Source: Phlebiopsis flavidoalba (taxonomy: Eukaryota; Basidiomycota; Agaricomycetes; Polyporales; Phanerochaetaceae). From it: a stretch of DNA of 64,000 bases. Position numbers and translations under genes: made by a program. Every line of letters starts with the position of its first letter. The first letter of the stretch is position 1. Shown piece by piece: positions 18,067 through 54,429 of this stretch. The stretch is from positions 372,001 through 436,000 of the forward strand of contig JAOCPU010000001.1 of the NCBI GenBank assembly GCA_035772785.1. The letters are read 5' to 3'. The notes under the pieces were generated by a model, which saw only the letters and a list, made by a program, of their open reading frames with translations, was not told the origin of the DNA and made no database searches.

Positions 18067-21000
18067 ATGAACATGCAGGAAGACGCGGCTGCTCCGACCA
18101 CGCAAGCGAGTGCGAGTGGAGCAAGCAGCCAAAACCGCCCCGCGAAGGAGCCGCGTCTCTTTGCTCCGTTTCGTGCTCTCGGGCTCATCACAAACCACGT
18201 CCCATTCGTCCTACAAACACGGTCATACAAGGGTGCAGCGGACGGGCCTACATTGCATCTTGTGACATGTCTGTGGCAAGGCGTGGCGCGGAGTGTGGAA
18301 GGTGGAAAAATGACGCTGCAGTTCGTAGTGTGAGTAAGTGCAAAGCACTCGTGCCAATGTTTGGTATACTCAAGTTATTCCCACTTGTTTGATAGGACCT
18401 CGGATGCGCAAGAGCACGATCACATACTCTGGGCCTATGGATGGGAAGGCTCGTGTGGGCTGCTGCCCGACGTAGCGATGTCATCAAGTATACCTACGAG
18501 GCCAAGGAGGGTCGCGGCGAGTCTGGAAATACGTTTGGGCTCAAAGCTTTCTTCCATACTTAATATTCGCGCACCGGCAATTATTTGGCACTGGACGGAG
18601 TGATGGAAAACGTTCTCGCCTTTACTATGCATGTTAATATGGGACCACCAAATTTAGACTAACGGCTATGTAACCGTCTTATTATCAACGCTGGCAACGC
18701 ATTGAACAAACCTCTTCCAGACGTCAAGGTCCACCGTAGGAGTTTGAGCCTGGATTCACACCGCAACAAAAAAAAAAATTGTTTTTTTTTTTTCACCCCC
18801 CCCCCTTATCCCCTTCCGCCTCCACCCGTCAACCGACCTGAACAAAGTACTCGTCGACAGATCCCAGGGCAGTATGCAGCTATGGATCATCCCGAACGCA
18901 GTTGAGGTCCTATTCCAATTGTCACGCATGCATCACCAACCATAACATCGTTGCAGGACATGCATTTCACAAGTTCTCTCCTGACACTCCCCCCACTTCT
19001 TACGTCCCCGTCAGCCCATGCAAAAGACGGACGCCTCCCGTTTTTTGGGGCCATTACCCGGCTGCACGCTCAAATTTCTCCAGACTATTGACGTCCGTGC
19101 GGTATTGGGTGTTCCGCTGTCTGGGGAGAGATCTCGGTCCTACGACGTTCGCCATGGACGAGAGTCTCCTGAGAATGAAAATGCCAAGACGGCAGCTTGA
19201 TTCGATCTCTAGGCTTCAGAAACCTGTGGGTACATAAAAACACTGTGCAGTCTCGTCGATCCTTCTGAACAACAATTCTTTCAGATGCGTTGCACCCCAT
19301 TCTGGCCTCTCCGCGTGTTCAGCTCTTCGACACGGACACATCGCGCTTCTGGGGGGTAACCTCAACGCAGGCAGAGCCGCCGACTGCAACATTCGTTCGA
19401 AGCGTGCGCAGGATGGCGCCGTCACAAGCAGTTCAAATGGATCCACTGGCCAGCAACTGCTAGTTCACATCGGGAGTAAGGACTAAAAGCGTCAAAACAG
19501 TGGATCTTCGACGCCCCCACCGCAGACTCCCCGCCTGCTCAAATAGTTATCGGTACAGGCCACACACGCACCCCCACATCCATACGGTACTACTCGGCGA
19601 GGACGGGAAAGCAGCTCTTGACACGCCTCGCGCCGACCGCAGTCTGCGGTGCACGAGCGATCGTTGCGTGACTACGCGCAGCTTTGAGCTCAGCCAGGGC
19701 TCGCTCCGCGAAAAAAAGGCGACGAGCATTGGCTATCCCCGTCGAGTCGCACTCAAGTTGCCGCCAATCACGTCGCTGTCGTATTCTGTGACCGACGGTC
19801 GAAGAGGATTGGGATGATGTGCTCACGTGGGCATACGGACGAGACGCTTGCAAAGGACAGTGGTCGAATGAAGGACAAGAAGATGGGGAATACACCTTGG
19901 GCGGCTGTCACGGGGAAGCAAAAAGAAAGGTGTATCGGTGGGATCTGTGAAGGTCAGAATTTCTCCTCTTGTTCGGGGCCTGCATTCACTAACATTGTGG
20001 GCACAGACGTGTCTGTGTTACGGCGTGCGGAACTTTGGCATTGCATCCTCCTCCACCGGTGCCTATATATACTGTACAAACATTGCAGTCGGGCATCAAG
20101 CGCAAGTCTTTCGACGTCGGGCCAGTTCCTGAAGGCGTAAAGCAGCGTGTTGATGCTTGCATCGAATACCAGACCAAAAGGAACGATGCGTGAATGGCCT
20201 GGCGAGTGATTCACTAAACCGAGCCGTCATTTGCAAGTACGCTTGATTGGAACGATCAATGTGAGTTTGTACATGAACTAGTTGACTGTGACCACTGACA
20301 AAGTTGTCTAGTTCTTTGACTTCCATACATGCTGAGTGAGCTGGGAGCATACGCTCGTGCTCCCTTCATCCGCTGTCTCGATAACACTCCATCGGGATAG
20401 CGGCCTCCTTGCTGTGATCTGTGACGACCTTGTGGTCCGCGTCGTCGATATCGAGACTCGGAGGGTGGTCCGTGAGCTCGGTGGCTTCCGAAGTCGAGTC
20501 CTTGACCTCGTGCGTTTCACTGTGCTGTTCTCGTTCGCTCGTTTGCTGAAATCTTTGGAAGACCTTCTCCCCTGACGCCAGATGAGCTCATCACACAACA
20601 TCGCTGGACTCGATCATCCGTACATTTGATATCCCGACTGGGCGACTTATCGACGCGTTCCGTACTTCGAGTGTCGCGACGAGCGTTTTTTCTCACCCAC
20701 GAACGACTTCCTAGCAACTGCTCATGTCGACAGCGTTGGAGTTTATCTCTCTGGTGGTTTGTGTTAATCTTTCTCTATCGCGTTTATTTGTTTATTGAAT
20801 GTAATGATAGGGCGAATCGTGCACAATATTCGGAAGTGTCGTTCCATGGGCATTGTGGACGACGACATCGCCGACGTGGCGTTACCTTCTGTGCAGGGCG
20901 AAGCTGAAGACGAAGGTAAATATCGGTTGAGCTATCCATTTACCTCACGTACTTACATCTCTCAGCACTCAGCACTCGATGCCCTTGCAGCTCTCACAGT

Positions 21001-21708
21001 CGACGACGCCCCACAAGACGTCTTCATCACCCCACCACAACTCGACGGCGAACTCGTCACGCTCACGCTTCTCCCGCGAAGCCGCTGGCAGACTCTGCTC
21101 AACCTCGAGGTCATCCAGCAACGCAACAAGCCCAAGGAGCCCCAAAGCCGCCCGAGAAGGCGCCGTTCTTCCTGCCCACGCTGCCGGGCGTCGCGCACCG
21201 GTTCGACGTCGCCCAGGCGGAGAAGGAGAAGAAGACGAGCAAGCCGACGCGCAGGCTCGAACGGGCTGCTGCGGGCTCCGAGAGCGTGTTCTTCCAGAAG
21301 CTGCAGGCGGAGGAACAGGATGGCGACTGTGAGTTCTATGGGACTGAGAAGAGAGTGTGGTTGGCTGACGTGTTGTTTTGTAGACGAAGGGTTTTACTCC
21401 TATGTGAAGACCCTCTCACCCGCCGCGATCGACCTAGAGATCCGCTCGCTTGTCACTCTCTCGACGCTCAGCGGCTCTTCATTTACTGCCCTTGTGCAAC
21501 CGACTACGCTCGCATCGCGACTTCGAAGCCGTGCAAGCATTCCAGAATGTGTTCTTGCGGATACATGGCGATGTGCTGGCGGCAAACTCCCCGAGGTCAT
21601 AGAAGAGCTGGAGAAACTGATGGAGGTGCAGAAAAAGGAGAGCGAGAGGGTGCTTGAGTTGCTCGCGTCGAGTCTGGGTACCTGGGTTTTGTCAGGGATG
21701 TCATATAG
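18067..21708 (+). CDS. UTP21: UTP21 (WDR36), U3 snoRNP / SSU processome protein (frameshifted)
   Basis: Utp21 is a tandem WD40-propeller subunit of the SSU processome UTP-B complex, needed for 18S rRNA maturation in the nucleolus. The start at 18067 gives MNMQEDAAAPTTQASAS, then LFAPFRALGLITNHVPFVLQ, the diagnostic first strand, and WEGGKMTLQFV. Propeller blocks follow: YLNKVLVG-like near 18845, GHIALLGGNLN near 19345, ERAQDGAVTSS near 19405, AHTDET-like near 19830, FGIA.SSTG near 20030, GIKRKSFDVGPVPEGV near 20095, TLVLPSSAVSITLHRDSGLL near 20350, VRVVDIETRRVVRELGGFRS near 20435, TFDIPTGRLIDAFR near 20625. The C-terminal helical Utp21 domain contains FITPPQLDGELVTLTLLPRS (21025), NLEVIQQRNKPKEPP, FFLPTLPGVAHRFD, FYSYVKTLSPAAIDLEIRSL (21385) and EELEKLMEVQKKESERVLEL, ending LGFVRDVI at a TAG at 21706-21708. 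Frameshifts occur throughout. Confidence 0.95.
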
Positions 21709-21915
21709 CAGTAACATGGGACCATTAATCAACGTTCTCTGTACTTCGTAAGGGTATTCTTGCATTGCGTAGACCCCTCGTTCCGTGATCCAGCAATGTC
21801 TTCGAAACGTGCCCAGCGGCCTCCAGCCTCCAGCCCGCGTCGTGGTCGCTTTCTCACGCACACGAAATGGCGTCAGGATGGGTCCCGTAGGCACTGGTAA
21901 ACCAGCGCCTGCGAG

Positions 21916-21922
21916 TATATAA
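21916..21922 (+). promoter_or_regulatory. TATATAA box upstream of U1-like RNA copy A
   Basis: TATATAAG lies 49 bases before the predicted RNA 5' end. The second RNA copy has the same box (GCG.GTATATAAG) 36 bases before its 5' end, although the surrounding flanks are otherwise little alike. The shared box supports transcription in the direction of the U1-like reading. Confidence 0.6.
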
Positions 21923-21964
21923 GGACGGCTTTCCGCCCCCCCGTCTGAACCTTCCACAGACTCC

Positions 21965-22136
21965 ATACTTACCTTGATGGCACATGCCCCTTCACCTACC
22001 CGGGTGTGTGGGCCGTGGGGGCCATCCATAGCACGGCGACCCGTCCTCAGAGGGAACCTGCGGTTTGTACGGGCTTCGGCTCGTGCACCGTCTCAATATT
22101 TTCCTGTTCTGTTTCGGCCCTCGGGGCTGGCAGGCC
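21965..22136 (+). ncRNA. U1-like spliceosomal snRNA candidate, copy A
   Basis: U1 snRNA pairs its 5' end with the 5' splice site in the first step of splicing. The predicted RNA starts ATACTTACCT, the invariant U1 5' end. Helix H can form between GATGG (21976-21980) and CCGTC (22088-22092), just before the Sm site, as in U1. Stem 1 is CACATGCCC/GGGTGTGTG (21981-21989/22002-22010). A second loop carries ATAGCAC (22028-22034), close to the U1A site ATTGCAC. Stem 3 is GTACGGGC-TTCG-GCTCGTGC (22067-22086) with an outer CGGT/ACCG. The Sm-type site AATATTTTC (22095-22103) starts at RNA nucleotide 131; in human U1 it lies near 126. A 3' hairpin (22103-22134) and T9 (22137-22145) follow. Odd point: loop 1 lacks the usual U1-70K motif GATCANGAAG. 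Confidence 0.6.
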
Positions 22137-22145
22137 TTTTTTTTT

Positions 22146-22185
22146 GGCTTCTAAGTTGCGCTAACCCTAACCCTATATTGATGTA
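22146..22185 (+). other. Conserved tail with two telomere-type CTAACC repeats (copy A)
   Basis: Identity between the two RNA copies continues about 40 bases beyond the T9 run, through GGCTTCTAAG and CTAACCCTAACCC (22161-22173) to ATTGATGTA, and stops there. The tail is either part of a longer RNA, a 3' processing or regulatory element, or the edge of a duplicated unit. Confidence 0.5.
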
Positions 22186-22931: not shown

Positions 22932-23760
22932 ATGTCCATCGTGCACTTACCTTCCCCACTCCCAACGGAATCCCCGCTCGATCCTCCTCGAAGAGTTCAA
23001 GGTGAGTCTGTCCGCCTCGGTAACGCATACATAATCCAACTAACGCACGCGCAGTCCGTCTACGGCGGGCCCGACTACGAGACCGTGCACATGAGCATCC
23101 GCGACGCGGACATCGGCAAGGTGCACAACCAGGTCAAGTCGGAGTGGTTCCTGAAGATCAACCCGAACGGGCGCATCCCCGCGATCACGCACGACGGGTT
23201 CCCACGTCTTCGAGACCTCCGCGATCCTCGTCTACCTCGCGCAGCAGTTTTGACAAGGAGAACAAGTTCTCGCGTCACCCCGCCAACGACCCCCAGGGCT
23301 ACAGCGAGGAGCTCCAGTGGCTCTTCTTTGCCGTGCGTCGCGCCGTGTCCCTGCATCTAGCTGCATATTTAATTGACGGGTCATTGCAGCACGGCGGTGT
23401 CGGCCCCATGCAAGGCCAGGCGAACCACTTCAACCTCTACGCGCCCGAAAAGATGTACGCACCCTCCCCCTCCCTCTCCTGACCCCACCTAACCCTCTCC
23501 CAGCCCCTACGCAATCAACCGCTACCTGAACGAGACGCGCCGCCTGTACAGCGTGCTCGAACACAAGCTCGAGGGGCGCGAGTACCTGCTGGGCACGTAC
23601 GGCATCGCAGACATCAAGGTCTTTGGCTGGGCGCGCTACCTGCCCCGCACGGGCGTGCCCCTCGAGGAGTTCCCCGAACGTCAAGGCGTGGGTCGAGCGC
23701 ATCGAGGCGCGCCCGGCGGTCCAGAGGGGCATTGCGACTGCGACGCCGTCTGAAAACTGA
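22932..23760 (+). CDS. Ure2p-type glutathione S-transferase 1 (frameshifted)
   Basis: Cytosolic GST of the fungal Ure2p/GstA class, which conjugates or reduces substrates with glutathione. ATG 22932 gives MSIVHL then the family start with an intron; the thioredoxin-fold domain follows as [69 protein letters not shown]. The helical domain reads [92 protein letters not shown] and ends [10 protein letters not shown] at TGA 23758-23760. [12 protein letters not shown] is the glutathione-site loop. About four frame breaks. Two paralogues follow on the minus strand. An upstream in-frame ATG at 22842 would add a mitochondrial-like leader, but it sits at the ATATAAA box. Confidence 0.92.
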
Positions 23761-23962
23761 CGCCTTACGAAACTTTAATCGGATGGAAGAAATGGAAGAA
23801 ATGCATGTGTATTAGTACGGACAGTGTTAAGCATGATTAGCTCGTGTGTACCTTTGGCAGGGATCGACGACGTAACTTTAGGAACGTGTATTCAGTTGGA
23901 CAATTCGACCGGTGTGAATAAATAAACCTATTTATTGCGCATATAGTCTATGAATAACGAAA

Positions 23963-24828
23963 CTACAACACCTCTACTCCTTTTTTCGGCGGCGTCGCAG
24001 CCGCAATAAACCCGCCTGCACCGCCGGCCGCGTCTCGATGCGCTCGACCCACGCCGCTTCACGCGCGGAAACTCGTCGAGCTCGAGCCCCAGGCGCGGCG
24101 CGGCGCGCACCCAGCCGAAACGCCTTGATGTCCGCGATGCCGTACGTGCCGAGCAGGTACTCGCGGTCCTGCAGCTGCGTCTCGAGCACGCCGTACAGCC
24201 GCTTTGTCTCGTTTGTGTAGCGCGTGATGGCGTATGGGCTGCGTGGGGTCAGTGGGAGGCGGATAGGAATGCGGGGAGGGCGTACATCTTTTCTTTGTTC
24301 CAGATAAAGTGGCCGGCTTGGCCTTGCATGGGGCCGATGCCGCCGTGCTACAAATTGTACGTATAAGCCTGTGTTCTGGGTGCGACAAACAGTGGAGACA
24401 TACCGTGAAGAAGATCCACTGGAGCTCCTGACTGTACCCCTTCGCGTCCTCCGTGGGGTGATGCGAGAACTTGTGCTCCTTGTCAAAGTGCTGCGCGAGG
24501 TACAGCAGGATCGCGAGACGTCTCGAAGACGGGGGGAAGCCGTCGTGCGTGAGCGCGGGGATGCGGCCGTTCGGGTTTGATCTTGCAGGAACCACTCGGA
24601 CTTGACCTGGTTGTGCACCTTGCCCGAATGTCCGCGTCGGCGGATGCTCATGTGCACGGTCTCGTAGTCGGGCCCGCCGTAGACGGCCTGATGTGCTAGG
24701 CTCAGATCCACGGCCAAAGGTCTTGCGACTCTCTGACGCACCTTCAATTCTTCCAGGAGGATAGCGGGAACGATTCCATTCGGCGTGGGAGCCGTATAGT
24801 TGATCAGCTTGCTGGATTCAGTAGCCAT
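23963..24828 (-). CDS. Ure2p-type glutathione S-transferase 2 (frameshifted)
   Basis: Second paralogue, convergent with copy 1. ATG at 24828 gives MATESSKLINYTAPTPNGIV, PAILLEELK, an intron, then [126 protein letters not shown] and the end A.TPPKK near 23963-23974 (which of two nearby stops is used depends on an uncertain frame). TPNG.V near the start is the Ure2p-type substitute for the catalytic Tyr/Ser loop. It is closest to copy 3 in the N-terminus (NYTAPTPNG). Frames change in nearly every exon. Confidence 0.92.
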
Positions 24829-25609
24829 AGCAGACAAAAGTGCGAGTATTGAGTATTGAGTGAGGTGCGGGTTGAGTGGCAGGGGGCCGGTGAGCAAGAC
24901 GCAAAGCCTGCCTAGCGGACGCGAGCATTTATACGCATCGCATACGTGCTGTGATCGACCTCAAGCGGGGTTCGGCTTAAGTAGATGGGCTGAACTCGCC
25001 AGATAGAGCGGTGGGATGACGGGGTATGACAGCGATGACGCGTCCGAACGCGACTATGGCCCTTGCTTGCTAAGCACCCCGCAGGGTGTTTGCCGAGGAG
25101 AGTGCTGAGAAATCGGTCGCTGGACGCGTCTGGCGCGTCTGCTCGCGAGCGCCGCTGGCGTCGTGTTAGTCCGCCGTCGTCGTAGCAGGTGCCCGACGAG
25201 AAAGTCGGGCGGGGTTTTTCGAGTCGCCGACCGAGGCCGGAACGAGGACGCGCGCCATCGAGCTCTGAAGAAAGCACGCGATATGGCAGAACCGGGCGCG
25301 GTCGTATTGTTCATTTTCCTGCCGCAGATGTGTAGGTTGTTGACTGGACTTTGTGGAAAAAGACACTTGCTTGATGACAAGGGGCTTTTTTTTTTGGGGG
25401 CGGAGTGACATGCAAGCCGGCTCGTCGACGTTCTGAGTCGTCCCCGCCTCGGGCGCTTCCAATCCAAGCGCCGACGTTGTGGCGTAATGTTGATGACCGG
25501 TGTTTAATTTCTGAGACATAACAACGTCGGCACTGTTTAAGTACCATCGGAATCGACTTCGACACTATCATGTATTATCAACAGTTGGTATCGTAACTCA
25601 TTCTACAGA
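24829..25609. other. Intergenic DNA between GST2 and GST3 with GST2 promoter
   Basis: Upstream region of the GST2 gene. No conserved peptide is seen despite several open frames, which are GC-composition artefacts. A shared GST-upstream element lies at 25061-25080. A T9 run at 25387-25395 is followed by GGGGG. Confidence 0.45.
25061..25080. promoter_or_regulatory. Shared GST-upstream palindromic element, copy 2
   Basis: CCTTGCTTGCTAAGCACCCC, with the near-palindrome GTGCTTAGCAAGCA on the other strand, lies 240 bases upstream of the GST2 start. The same core (TTGCTTGCTAAGCAC) lies about 200 bases upstream of GST3, and a weaker form (CTTTCTAAGCAGG) about 165 bases upstream of GST1. It may be a transcription-factor site or simply conserved promoter sequence of recent duplicates. 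Confidence 0.45.
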
Positions 25610-26470
25610 TCAATCCTGCTTAGGCGGGTTGGCGATCTCAATGCCCGCCTTCACGGCCGGCCGCGCCTCAATGCGGTCTAGCCACGCCTTCACATTCGGG
25701 AATTCAACCAACAACTCAGGGAGCACACGCGGCGCGGCGCGAACCCAGCCAAAAGCCTTGATGTCCGCGATACCGTAAGAGCCTGTGATGATACTCGCGA
25801 TCCTTGAGCTGCGTTTCGAGGACGCCGACGAGACGCTTTGTCTCGTTCGTGTAGCGGGTAATGGCATAGGGACTGGAAGAAATGTCAGCGTCCCGAAGGA
25901 GATAACTCAAATTATGGAGCTCACATTTTCTCTGGCGCATACACAGTAAAAGTGGCCCGCCTGGCCCATCATTGGTCCTATACCGCCATGCTACACATCC
26001 GATCATCAGCTCGAGCAATCCGCGCATACATACGACAAAAGCTTACAGTGAAGAACAACCACTGCAAGTCTTCGCTGTATCCCTTGGTGGTGGTCTTTGA
26101 CAGGATCATGCGAGAACTTGCTCTCCTTATCAAACTGCTGCGCGAGGTACAGCAGAATCGCAGACGTCTCGAAGACGGGAACCCATCATGCGTGAGCGCG
26201 GGAATGCGGCCATTGGGGTTGATCTTCAGGAACCACTCCGACTTGACCTGGTTGTGCACCTTGCCGATGTCCGCGTCGCGATGCTCATGTGCACGGTCTC
26301 GTAGTCAGGCCCGCCGTAGACGGCCTTGGGAAATAAGATGTCAGTGACGGCGCGTTGGGTATTGGAAGATGCTACAATTGCCTTCAGTTCTTCCAGTAGG
26401 ATTGAGATGACCCATCCATTAGGAGTGGGCGCGGTGTAGTTTACAAGGGACTTGAGGACGTGCTGGCCAT
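25610..26470 (-). CDS. Ure2p-type glutathione S-transferase 3 (frameshifted)
   Basis: Third paralogue, head-to-tail with GST2. ATG at 26470 gives MASTSSSPL then VNYTAPTPNGWV, ISILLEELKA, an intron, [58 protein letters not shown]-type block, [90 protein letters not shown] and AGIEIANPPKQD with the TGA at 25610-25612. All family blocks are present in order at about 240 residues. Frame changes again appear sequence-error-like. The three genes form a tandem/inverted cluster of 3.5 kb, suggesting local duplication. Confidence 0.92.
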
Positions 26471-45200: not shown

Positions 45201-46470
45201 TTTCTGGGTATAGGCCGGTCCCAGCCCCTCAATCGAAACATATTGACACTTTTTCCTAGTCTGTGCTACCTTGGGGGAGCTGACAGAAACAAACAAGACA
45301 TTCTTGGGTAAAGCTCAACAACACTCGCCGACCCTGACGTAACGACAAACGTTACCCTCTCAAGTGACTCTGGATAAGAAAGATGAAGAATTTGTGGAAA
45401 GTGGATGGATACAGCTACGTAAGACGTATTTATTTTACGCTCAACAAGCTTCTGACTTTCGTGCCAAAGCTATGACGCTATCAAGGTCATGGCTGGGGAT
45501 GTGGCCCATAAGCTTACAGTACTGGCATAACGACTCCCCCTCCAAGCAACAAGAAGAGCAGGCTGGAGAAAAAAACCGAGCCACCCCCAATCTGAGATAA
45601 CGTGTACCAGGAGTTGTACATGAAGCATCGACTGTACCCTGTACATGGGGGGAAAAGTACGATCCAACAGCTTGTGTTGATGAAAAGTACAGGCCATTTG
45701 GAAGCCAAAATGTATATGTAACAGCGCTGCCCTGTTCCCCTCGGCAGGTCCTAGGTACGTCCTTTGAGACAATCGATCGCTAGCATGATCCAAATCTCAC
45801 TCACATAAGGATTTCACCTAGGCTCCTGGAATAGGAATCCCGTCTGACTGTGACCATATGTGCGCTTACCCGCTCAAGAACCTTGCAGAGAAACTAATCG
45901 GCCGCGAAATGAGCAACCGTTGCAAATATTGTAGTTCAGTTTCCCTCCTAGACGCCTAGGGGCGCCTTCTACACCGCTCGCACCGAATTCAGTTAGCTAG
46001 TCAGTACTAGTGCAGTCAGCCACTTGCGGACTAAGTAACCTGACGACGAACACTGGTCCGAGGTCCTCTCGATGCTAAAGTGAGATAATTATCGTACGGC
46101 AAGATGCTCTCATGTGACAGGTGTATGCCAAATGAAATAGTCTACAAGTATGTGGAAACGTCCGAATTGTCTCAGTATCTCCTCGCAATTGACGTCAGGG
46201 CTTCTAGTTTCCTGCGACATCACCAAGACTGAGATTATTTTAAGAGTGATAAACGTTTTCATTGTTTCTGTTCCTGCTGAACATTCGGAAGGAAGTATTT
46301 ATTACAATGAGCCGGGCAATACGTGTACACCTGGCAATGTTTTGATAGCCAATACCATACAACGAAACTGAGCTTTCAAGGCCCTATGCAGCGACCCTGT
46401 TCCTGGGTGGCGCCATCTACTGCGCCGAACGCTTCGTCCCATCCAGTCCCATCAATCGCCCGGTAGGCCG
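45201..46470. other. No gene recognised
   Basis: No conserved peptide or RNA is visible. Open frames near 45364-45600 (+) and 45470-45793 (-) show no motif. The right end adjoins the 3' end of the insulysin gene. Confidence 0.4.
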
Positions 46471-49400
46471 TTAGGCCTTGGGAATCTGTGAAAACGACGG
46501 TATTACCCTCCTCTGATTTTTTTCCCTCGTAGTCCCTAGATGCGGGGGCTTCCCTCGCGAAACTTTGTAAGCGTCTGGAGAATCGTCTTGACCTCGTCTT
46601 CGTGGACAACGAGTGTCTCGCCCGCAAGTACCTGCTGCCAGTATGCGATTTACCAGGGTAAGAGCGGGCTCATCACTGGAAATGAGCTCCGCTTTCCACT
46701 TCGCTTCATCGACGGTGATGCCTTTGTCGGCGAGGCTGGAAGCAAAGGCAGTGATGGCGGGCCTTGCTGACGTGTCGCTGCGGTCGGACCTTCATGAGAT
46801 TTGAGGTGTAGAGGCCAGCTTTGAACGGGATGGGGAGTCAGGGTGCACGTGGCTCTTCATGAGAGCTATCAACTCTTCCTTTCTTCACCGCCTTGAGAAT
46901 CTCGATCCTTTCTTGACCTGCGGTAGATTGAGTATACGGATCATGTCTATGATTACTAGGAACTCACGCTCAGTGTGGCAACCAAGGCAATCGGTGTCAA
47001 TGAGGTGCCAAAACCTATTGAGCTCTTGGGAGAGATCCACAGTATCCCTCCATCTCCAGTACTTCTCCAGTCCGTGCTTATGCTCGTTGAGCACCTCTTC
47101 AGTCATACCCTCCACCATTTTTCCATCATCTCTACAAGGAACGCATCGACACGCTCCTCGAGGAATGCAGGCGCCCTCTCGCTCTGCACGGTGATAAGGA
47201 TGCCGATGTCGTTTGTCGCATCCCAGCCAGGAGGAATAAGCGGTGTAGCCAAGCTGTTCGCGGGTGCGCAGAATGTCGAATGTGGGCTCATGGAGGATCT
47301 GCCTCAGCAATGCCACGATCACGGGAAGGTGTGTCCCGTCTGCCCCCCCGAAGTACAGGTAGTAGCTCAGCGAGCCGAGTTCGGCTCGTTTTTTGTTTCC
47401 CAAAGGAACCTCCCAGACTGCATTTACACCGCTAGGAGGGACGAGCATGTGGGTCTCGATGGACTCGGGAAGAGACGAGCACCGTAACGCCCGTTCTGCA
47501 GCTTTCATGAGCTGAATGGCTTCCTGTATTTTATTCAGTCAGCCTGCGGAGTCATTTATCAAAGTACTTCGACACACCTCTCTGTGTATATTGCCAACTG
47601 TGACATTGCGGATCTCGACTTGGTCAAATAATTTGGCAGCATGTGCCTCGAACTCGTCCAGAGTGATAGCTGATGCTCCTTCAGTCCGACGGTCATGCAT
47701 GTCAGAATAGTTAGCCAACTTACAAGAAACTTGGTCGATCCCCTCGGACGTGTGCCATGCGTTGTCAGTCGTAATATACGACATATAGTAGCCAGCGATC
47801 TTGTACGGATTGGAGAAGTAGAAATTACGCCATCCTCGGATAAGCTGCGCACGGGGTTAGTTGCTGCCATGAAAATCACAATGAAATAAGACTAACATGA
47901 GCTTTCGCGACCTCCAGTTGTTCAGGAGTCGTCACGACTAGATTACGTGCCCTCTCGAAGACCACCTTCGCTAAGGCACCGAGCTTGTCGTTGTATCCGC
48001 TTATGACGATGCATGGGCCGAGGGGGTCCGTTTGAAATCTGCAATCCAAGCCTGCCACTTTTGCATCATACAACTCCCCAGAGAGGGAATCAGTGGGCGA
48101 GATCGGTGAAGAGCCTTCGATGTATTAGTGAGAAGTAGCGACGAGTTATGACATCAACTTACGTGGTCATTGCGAAAGCCCGTGGGGATCGATATGCGAT
48201 TGGACTGTAACGTCAATAAGCACCAAAGTCGAAGGTTATAGAAAGGAATAGCATACCTGCGAAAGTCTATGACGATAGTTTTGCTCTGGGCACCCAGAAT
48301 TGATCGTCTTTCTTTGTGCCAGAGCTTGGATAATGGGGTGGAGTAAACAAGCGTGGGGCGTTCCGCGGGCTGGCAAGTACTGAATGAGCTAAACTCGCAA
48401 CTAAGCATTTGGTTAAATAATCACCTTCTCGATTTGTCGCTTATCTATCTCGACGCTGGTAGGGATAAATTTTGTTGGGTTCAGGCAGGTAAAGGTCGAG
48501 TATGTCATTGGGGGGCTTGGGCCTTCACAAGTTCAGTACTAATTTCACAGTATGCCAGCTCGATACAACGCTCACCTTCGAGAGAAATTCGGCGTCGAAC
48601 CGCTGTACATGATACTGTGTACCATATATGGGCTCTGTCTTCCACTCCGCGGACCCCCAGAGAGACGTTCGTGCTGCTTCTGCCTTGGCTGAGAGGAACA
48701 CACGGCCAAGCTCTAGCCGCATGCTATCCAGAATTTTGCGCACCTCCTGCTCCCCCCTCTTCGTTCCACGCCTCCGCTAGCCGGCGGCTGGAGAGGATGT
48801 GATCGCGAGGCATAGCGGGCCATGTCATCTGAGCGCTGATCCCTTGTGCGTAGGCAGATGAGGAGTATTCCTTCTTGCACTTGAAGTTGATCTCATGCAT
48901 CGCGGCAATCTCGTCTTGACGCCATTTCGAAAGGGTGGATGAGCGCATCATCGACAAGTATTTGAAGACCACAAGGATAACGTCTTTATAGTTGGCTACA
49001 TGTGGCAACGGGTTAGCTCAGTAGTAACATCCTCGATGAGAGTTCTTACCAAAGCCCTCATCGGTTAGGTCAATGATAATATGGAAGCAGATGAAACCTT
49101 TGGCGAGGGAATCGTAAGGTTCACATCCCACTCCTATGACCCACCCCTTGCGTTGCAGATATGCTAAAAGCGACCCGGGACCCTTGTGTACAACAAAGTA
49201 GAACAGAAATTCGAAGGGCCGACGACGCCAGGAAGATGCAGGATAGGGCAAAGGGAAAAAGATTTCGAGTAGGTGGATATCCATGATGCTTTGGGCGGAT
49301 ACCAGTGTCTAAGGCGTGCATGAGAAAAGGCGCATAATTTCTTCATGCCAATACACTCACGCTGTACTCATCCTTGCCGAATGGATTGTCGAAGACTTCG

Positions 49401-53718: not shown

Positions 53719-53768
53719 TACATCAATGTGGGGTTAGGGTTAGGCGCAGCTTAGAAGCCAAAAAAAAA
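53719..53768 (-). other. Conserved tail with telomere-type repeats (copy B)
   Basis: On the minus strand the T9 run (53768-53760) is followed by GGCTTCTAAG and CCTAACCCTAACCCC (53744-53730), ending ATTGATGTA at 53719. It matches the tail of copy A; identity stops at the same base in both. Confidence 0.5.
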
Positions 53769-53985: not shown

Positions 53986-53993
53986 CTTATATA
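53986..53993 (-). promoter_or_regulatory. TATATAAG box upstream of U1-like RNA copy B
   Basis: TATATAAG on the minus strand, 36 bases before the predicted RNA 5' end, with the same GCG.G context as upstream of copy A. Confidence 0.6.
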
Positions 53994-54429
53994 CGCGAGG
54001 CGCCGGCGCACGGACCACATTCGTGGCGTGGGAGACTGAAAATGGAGGCGTTCGTGTCGATTCATGCGGTAACTGAATGCAATTGAGCTCATGGTGGTTC
54101 ATGCGACTTCGTAGTGGTAGGATCGACGCTAAACGTGTGTGACCATATGTAATGCTATCAAGTTGCATAATGCATCGTGATCTTCGAGGTTTGAGTTTCA
54201 ACCAGACACGTAGACGGAATAAGCGTCCGCTTTGTGAGGTTTAGACTTTCTCGCGAGAAGTCAACGAGAAGCCAGCAGGACGATCTCTCGTTGTTACCAC
54301 AAAGGGATTTATGAATGATCGTTGTATATTGCGAAATACTCTATGACAAGTTGAGGGAAACGATGTTGCAAATAGCTCACAGCATACACTAGCGATGAAT
54401 AGATACATTAACTCGAGTCTGAGTGTTGT
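53994..54429. other. No gene recognised
   Basis: Spacer between the U1-like copy B and the 3' end of the mitochondrial carrier gene; nothing else visible. Confidence 0.45.

Follow-up and report, generated by a model that had tools for sequence, protein, structure and literature searches.

A candidate U1 snRNA family in the fungus Phlebiopsis flavidoalba and a promoter element common to U1-like, U2 and U4 genes

U1 RNA marks the beginnings of introns. The U1A site is AUUGCAC, and the Rfam family RF00488 represents yeast U1. Promoters of snRNA genes differ between kingdoms, consisting of a USE and a TATA box in plants and of a PSE in animals. In human U1, loop I (G28 to G37) is bound by U1-70K; within it, C31 and A32 are stacked on Phe106 and Phe148, U30 is packed on two leucines, and A29 pairs with A36 (PMC4383343). 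Among fungi, TATA-less U6 promoters with the motif GGTAATGCAAAACT have been reported in Flammulina filiformis (PMC9318071).

Here we describe a U1-like RNA of the agaricomycete Phlebiopsis flavidoalba, two copies of which (A and B) lie in the window, by which we mean the whole 64,000-nucleotide stretch analysed. No description of this RNA or of its promoter appeared among the matches listed from the open-access literature. The RNA has the U1 5′ end in common with yeast U1 and is far shorter; RF00488 was not among the Rfam matches in the window, in the region of copy A or at the loci of the five copies found. With human U1 it shares the 5′ end AUACUUACCU and the order of parts, in which three stem-loops are followed by the Sm site and a 3′ hairpin, with helix H just before the Sm site. 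In place of AUUGCAC, copy A carries AUAGCAC, which is one base from the U1A site and sits in a loop of uncertain geometry. The Sm site begins at nucleotide 131 here and at nucleotide 125 in human U1, and reads AAUAUUUUC here and AAUUUGUGG there (PMC4383343). Loop I, CUUCACCUACCC, has UCAC in common with the human loop and in register with it: UCAC occupies the places of human U30 to C33, while A29 and A36 have U and A as their counterparts.

The U1-like unit and its five copies

The initial annotation had proposed a 172-base unit with a U1-type 5′ end, helix H, stem-loops, an Sm-type site and a terminal T run; direct reading found the unit and all of these elements in place (Table 1) and confirmed the start of the Sm site at nucleotide 131. 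The UUCG-capped stem is likewise present, but at 9 bp it is one pair longer than the 8 bp first given.

Table 1 Features of the two U1-like copies in the window.
Feature	Position in window	Strand	Remarks
U1-like snRNA body, copy A (L001)	21965-22136	+	172 bases, read directly
Possible broken upstream element GGTCCCGTAGGCAC, copy A	21881-21894	+	
TATA box TATATAAG, copy A	21916-21923	+	49 bases 5′ of RNA start
U1-type 5′ end ATACTTACCT, copy A	21965-21974	+	would pair with 5′ splice sites
Helix H, 5′ strand GATGG	21976-21980	+	invariant in 5/5 copies
Stem-loop I	21981-22010	+	9 bp (CACATGCCC/GGGTGTGTG), 12-nt loop CUUCACCUACCC
Stem-loop II region	22011-22065	+	outer stem 9 bp; inner part uncertain
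AUAGCAC (DNA ATAGCAC), in stem II	22028-22034	+	unbroken in 4/5 copies; L005 with 3-base insert
Stem-loop III, UUCG loop	22066-22087	+	9 bp; 9/9 pairs unvarying in 5 copies
Helix H, 3′ strand CCGTC	22088-22092	+	invariant in 5/5 copies; can pair with GATGG
Sm-type site AATATTTTC	22095-22103	+	starts at nucleotide 131; AATATTTT in 5/5 copies
3′ stem-loop IV	22103-22134	+	outer 5 pairs in 5/5 copies
T9 run, RNA 3′ end of copy A	22137-22145	+	
Telomere-repeat-like CTAACCCTAACCC, copy A	22161-22173	+	downstream of T run
Upstream element GTGGTCCGTGCGC, copy B	54006-54018	-	-61
TATA box, copy B	53986-53993	-	-36
U1-like RNA, copy B	53957-53769	-	G-rich insertion in stem-loop I
CTAACCCTAACCC element, copy B	53731-53743	-	

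The 36.28-Mb genome holds five copies that are 87-100% identical to copy A, namely A (L001), B (L003), L002 (C1:458625-458849), L004 (C2) and L005 (C3). Helix H, the Sm core AATATTTT and the 3′ T run are retained in all five; in helix H every one of the 25 cells is paired, the Sm site follows it and the 3′ hairpin comes after. The 5′ end ATACTTACCT is exact in four copies, and in L004 it becomes ATACTTAACCT through an extra A. Loop I is CUUCACCUACCC in A, B and L005, is one U longer in L002 and differs in L004. The T run measures T7-T9 throughout and is preceded by an extra A in L004 and L005, and in stem-loop IV the inner six pairs are paired in 73% of cells as the five copies are aligned. 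Indels set the copies apart: copy B has the G-rich insert in stem I, L004 an insert at the 5′ end, and L005 a deletion affecting stems I and II as well as one extra T in stem III.

Some of this variation should be read with the state of the assembly in mind. Three glutathione S-transferase genes clustered beside copy A (window 23034-26453) show repeated frame shifts, in which adjacent matched pieces are separated by gaps of a few bases that leave no room for introns; the U1-70K reading discussed below also changes frame, and run lengths are not the same in the two best U6 copies. Assembly indel errors seem to us a more likely source of these frame shifts than decayed genes, and small differences among the U1 copies may be assembly errors as well, so that little weight should be placed on a difference like the G-rich insert in copy B. 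In a Pfam scan of 20 open reading frames of the window, three had a match at E up to 0.001, all of them partial and two below the curated cut-off. The open frame that ends just upstream of copy A (window 20768-21748) matches a Utp21-type domain in two stretches. For one protein of the window, the closest named relatives come from Fomitiporia, Phellinidium, Gelatoporia and other mushrooms, all of them Agaricomycetes.

Outside the promoter and about 75 bases on the 3′ side, the flanks of the copies show little alignment. Two further stretches, of 69% and 77% identity, are common to the L002 region and the window, at distances from copy B that do not match. One of them (window 46468-47189 against L002 355-1057; 69% identity over about 700 bases) lies near two U1 copies, and its likeness suggests an older duplication. 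A search of viral contigs with ATACTTACCTTGATGGCAC returned no homologues. Among prokaryote contigs, a 16-base word gave 95 stretches, of which 80 were compared; the best E value was 0.012, and nearly all the matches listed consist of the 16-base word alone, as chance predicts.

Promoters of the snRNA genes

Three U1-like copies (L002, B and L004) carry the upstream element GTGGTCCGTGCGC at -58 to -61 together with a TATA box at -34 to -36, and the same element or a close form stands at -54 to -59 before all four U2 genes and the single U4 gene; the 13-base element of the three U1 copies is the same as that of U4. For scoring, the U2 start was set by hand at the ATCC-type word before TTACCAC and the U4 start was taken from the Rfam match. 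A matrix was built from eight words picked by eye, with each gene left out in turn, and compared with a background of 5000 130-mers of the window, copy B included. By this matrix, the element lies at -54 to -61 in three of five U1, four of four U2 and one of one U4 genes; the weakest case, in the U2 copy L009, scores 10.4 bits, a value attained by 1.4% of random 130-mers. A TATA box at -26 to -36 accompanies it in seven of the eight element-bearing genes, the U2 copy L008 having TACATA. When the 36.3-Mb genome was searched with the pattern GGTCCGTGCRCN{8,22}TATA (GGTCCGTGCRC-N8-22-TATA), six distinct places were found (9 rows), and none with the reversed control. These are three U1 copies, one U2 gene, the U4 gene and a site at C24:364377. 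A looser pattern, CCGTGCN{8,28}TATATA, is uninformative, with 74 matches against 69 in the control. The site on C24 (L056, C24:364377-364407) has no credible Rfam match downstream, and either is fortuitous or belongs to an unknown small RNA gene.

The U5 and U6 genes differ in this respect. The motif GASTTGAMCRAAATGC stands 41-44 bases before the Rfam match at both U5 genes (L010 and L011) and at one U6 gene (L014), and an exact search finds it at these three places only in the genome and at none in the control; the other two U6 loci (L013 and L015) have degenerate forms, as judged by eye. No TATA-type word was found within 130 bases at the five U5 and U6 loci. As in plant and animal snRNA genes, then, an upstream element lies near -60, with a TATA box as in plants; here, however, GTGGTCCGTGCGC plus TATA belongs to U1, U2 and U4, while U5 and U6 have a separate TATA-less element. 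The U6 genes of Flammulina filiformis are likewise reported to be TATA-less, whereas the motif here is GASTTGAMCRAAATGC and also stands before U5 (PMC9318071).

Copy A itself departs from this arrangement. Its TATA box, which the initial annotation had pointed out, is real, but it lies at -49, compared with -34 to -40 in the other U1 copies, and the upstream element is missing. Matrix scoring finds no upstream element at copy A or L005: the best 13-mer of copy A scores 4.9 bits, attained by 24% of random 130-mers, and the best score of L005 is attained by 31% of the background. The BLAST match of copy A to copy B ends one base before the RNA start, and for this reason retroposition of copy A was considered. 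It was rejected, as the upstream region of copy A is still alignable to the other promoters: its alignment beats 500 of 500 shuffles against both L002 and L003, 499 of 500 against L004 and 493 of 500 against L005. Because of this alignability, the region upstream of copy A resembles a promoter of the common type that about 25 additional bases have disrupted. The absent upstream element and unusual TATA spacing make copy A doubtful as a gene; it is probably a duplicate, weakly active or silent, and not the main gene. That role is best assigned to L002, which lies outside the window and is the most intact copy.

On the 3′ side, CTAACCCTAACCC is whole in four of the five U1 copies and AACCCTA lies downstream of all five. 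AACCCTA was absent within 1.5 kb at all ten U2, U4, U5 and U6 loci, and occurs at three other places in the window. The Sm site AATATTTTC of the U1-like copies is unlike those of the U2 (AATTTTTG, or GATTTTTG in L008), U4 (AATTTTTGG) and U5 (AATTTTTTC and AATTTTTC) genes of the same genome; it is interrupted by an A such that its longest T run is 4, compared with T5 in U2 and U4. Given this interrupted run and the T7-T9 at the RNA 3′ end of all five copies, one may postulate that U1 is made here by RNA polymerase III, which we regard as quite unlikely. A milder reading, and a guess, is that the T run sets the 3′ ends of U1 and that CTAACCCTAACCC downstream acts as a roadblock.

Covariance models, folding and the search for another U1

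A match to the Rfam U1 model RF00003 had been suggested as a check of the initial annotation, and here the outcome was negative at every level. The model gave no match in the 64-kb window at the gathering threshold, and none at E up to 10 either in 401 bases around copy A or at the five loci of the family. A genome-wide run at E up to 0.001, which scored 41 of 621 candidates, was likewise negative; the model also matched none of 14 control genomes, so that these provided no positive control for it. In the same genome, the same tool recovered four U2, one U4, two U5 and three U6 genes, one of them below the cut-off.

Folding provides little discrimination. The free minimum of copy A is -70.1 kcal/mol (z -1.23), 23 of 200 shuffles are equally good, the minus strand has a z of 0.50, and the minimum free energy structure is not that of U1. 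When the 5′ end and the Sm site are kept unpaired, copy A takes on the architecture initially described, at -67.3 compared with -69.2 kcal/mol free (same script), and unconstrained L004 forms helix H, stem I and stem III; L002, B and L005 adopted the U1 fold in neither free nor constrained mode. A drawn U1 structure with a shorter inner stem II has -54.8 against a free optimum of -69.2 kcal/mol on copy A and -45.9 against -67.3 on the five-copy majority consensus, and thus lies 14 and 21 kcal/mol above the respective optima. In this structure, which was drawn on copy A, 94.1% of cells pair over the five copies, compared with 33.3-51.7% when it is slid; all 500 of 500 shuffles reach the observed pair counts because the five copies are too alike. 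No pair of the drawn structure is altered on both sides among the five paralogues, and hence no compensatory change was found for the four-way junction. The fold of copy A alone is at chance level, and the family and its promoter are above it.

We also looked for a better U1 among all 75 exact ATACTTACCT sites in the genome, each of which was examined by script, and found none. A loose test for helix H and an Sm-like site was passed by 11 sites, four of them family members and seven others. The word AT[TA]GCAC occurs at three sites, all family members, and only three sites, again all family copies, combine it with helix H and an Sm-like site. A loop-I-like word is present at two sites, L066 and L094. 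The former (C1:629420) passes the test for helix H and Sm site but was judged a chance occurrence, as CCGTGC is missing from the 110 bases before it and it gave no U1 match; the latter fails that test. The search covers U1 genes with an exact ATACTTACCT.

No GAUCA-type U1-70K site was found in loop I, apart from UCAC; U1-70K may nevertheless bind the altered loop. One N-terminal domain of U1-70K is present in the genome (L231, C37:101654-101878), at 24.9 bits against a cut-off of 23 and an E value of 7e-4; it is the sole match, and the reading downstream changes frame several times. The call of a putative U1-70K is based on this domain match. A 29-residue piece of the reading matched only chains of CUGBP1 in the PDB set, so that this piece alone fails to show U1-70K.

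Identity of the family and alternative explanations

With five copies, a promoter common to U2 and U4, and no better candidate, the family is very probably the U1 snRNA of this fungus. The identity put forward initially is thus supported for the family, on evidence beyond that of the initial annotation and against a negative RF00003 result; copy A, on which it was first proposed, belongs to the family but is a doubtful gene with a seemingly damaged promoter. Membership in RF00003 fails, and a U1-like mode of working is well supported. We infer that the three copies with the common promoter would be transcribed from GTGGTCCGTGCGC at about -59 and a TATA box at about -30 to -35, with ATACTTACC as the predicted RNA start. 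Sm proteins would then bind the RNA at AAUAUUUU, U1-70K and U1A would recognise it through their altered loops, and in splicing the 5′ end AUACUUACCU would pair with the first bases of introns.

Alternatively, the family could consist of U1-like pseudogenes or variants, with the genuine U1 gene hidden in an assembly gap or starting with another 5′ end, but this appears unlikely. The indels in copy B, L004 and L005 and the lack of RF00003 matches to the copies would fit it, and the site search would have overlooked any U1 gene whose 5′ end departs from ATACTTACCT; coding regions are frameshifted too, however, so the indels may be assembly errors, while helix H, the Sm site and stem III are retained in all five copies and three of them carry the 13-base element of U4. 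The U2, U4, U5 and U6 genes were all found, moreover, which makes a gap confined to U1 less likely.

That the stretch arose by chance or derives from a repeat, and has no RNA function, is very unlikely. Its weak folding z-score and the lack of covariation would be expected under such an origin, but only five copies were found, their 5′ end, Sm site and 3′ end are nearly always conserved, and the promoter persists in three copies while the flanks diverge and is shared with U2 and U4. A part of a protein-coding gene is extremely improbable: the stretch does overlap open reading frames on both strands (74 codons on the plus, 209 on the minus), yet the indels between the copies have lengths not divisible by three (some of these indels may be assembly errors), and the copies retain helix H, the Sm site and stem III.

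If the family is indeed the U1 snRNA of this fungus, then there is at least one agaricomycete whose U1 escapes the Rfam U1 model, and automated annotation would list the spliceosome as lacking U1. In that case the altered loop I would constitute a natural test of co-evolution between U1-70K and its RNA, and one element for U1, U2 and U4 together with a separate element for U5 and U6 would provide a simple rule for snRNA genes in related fungi.
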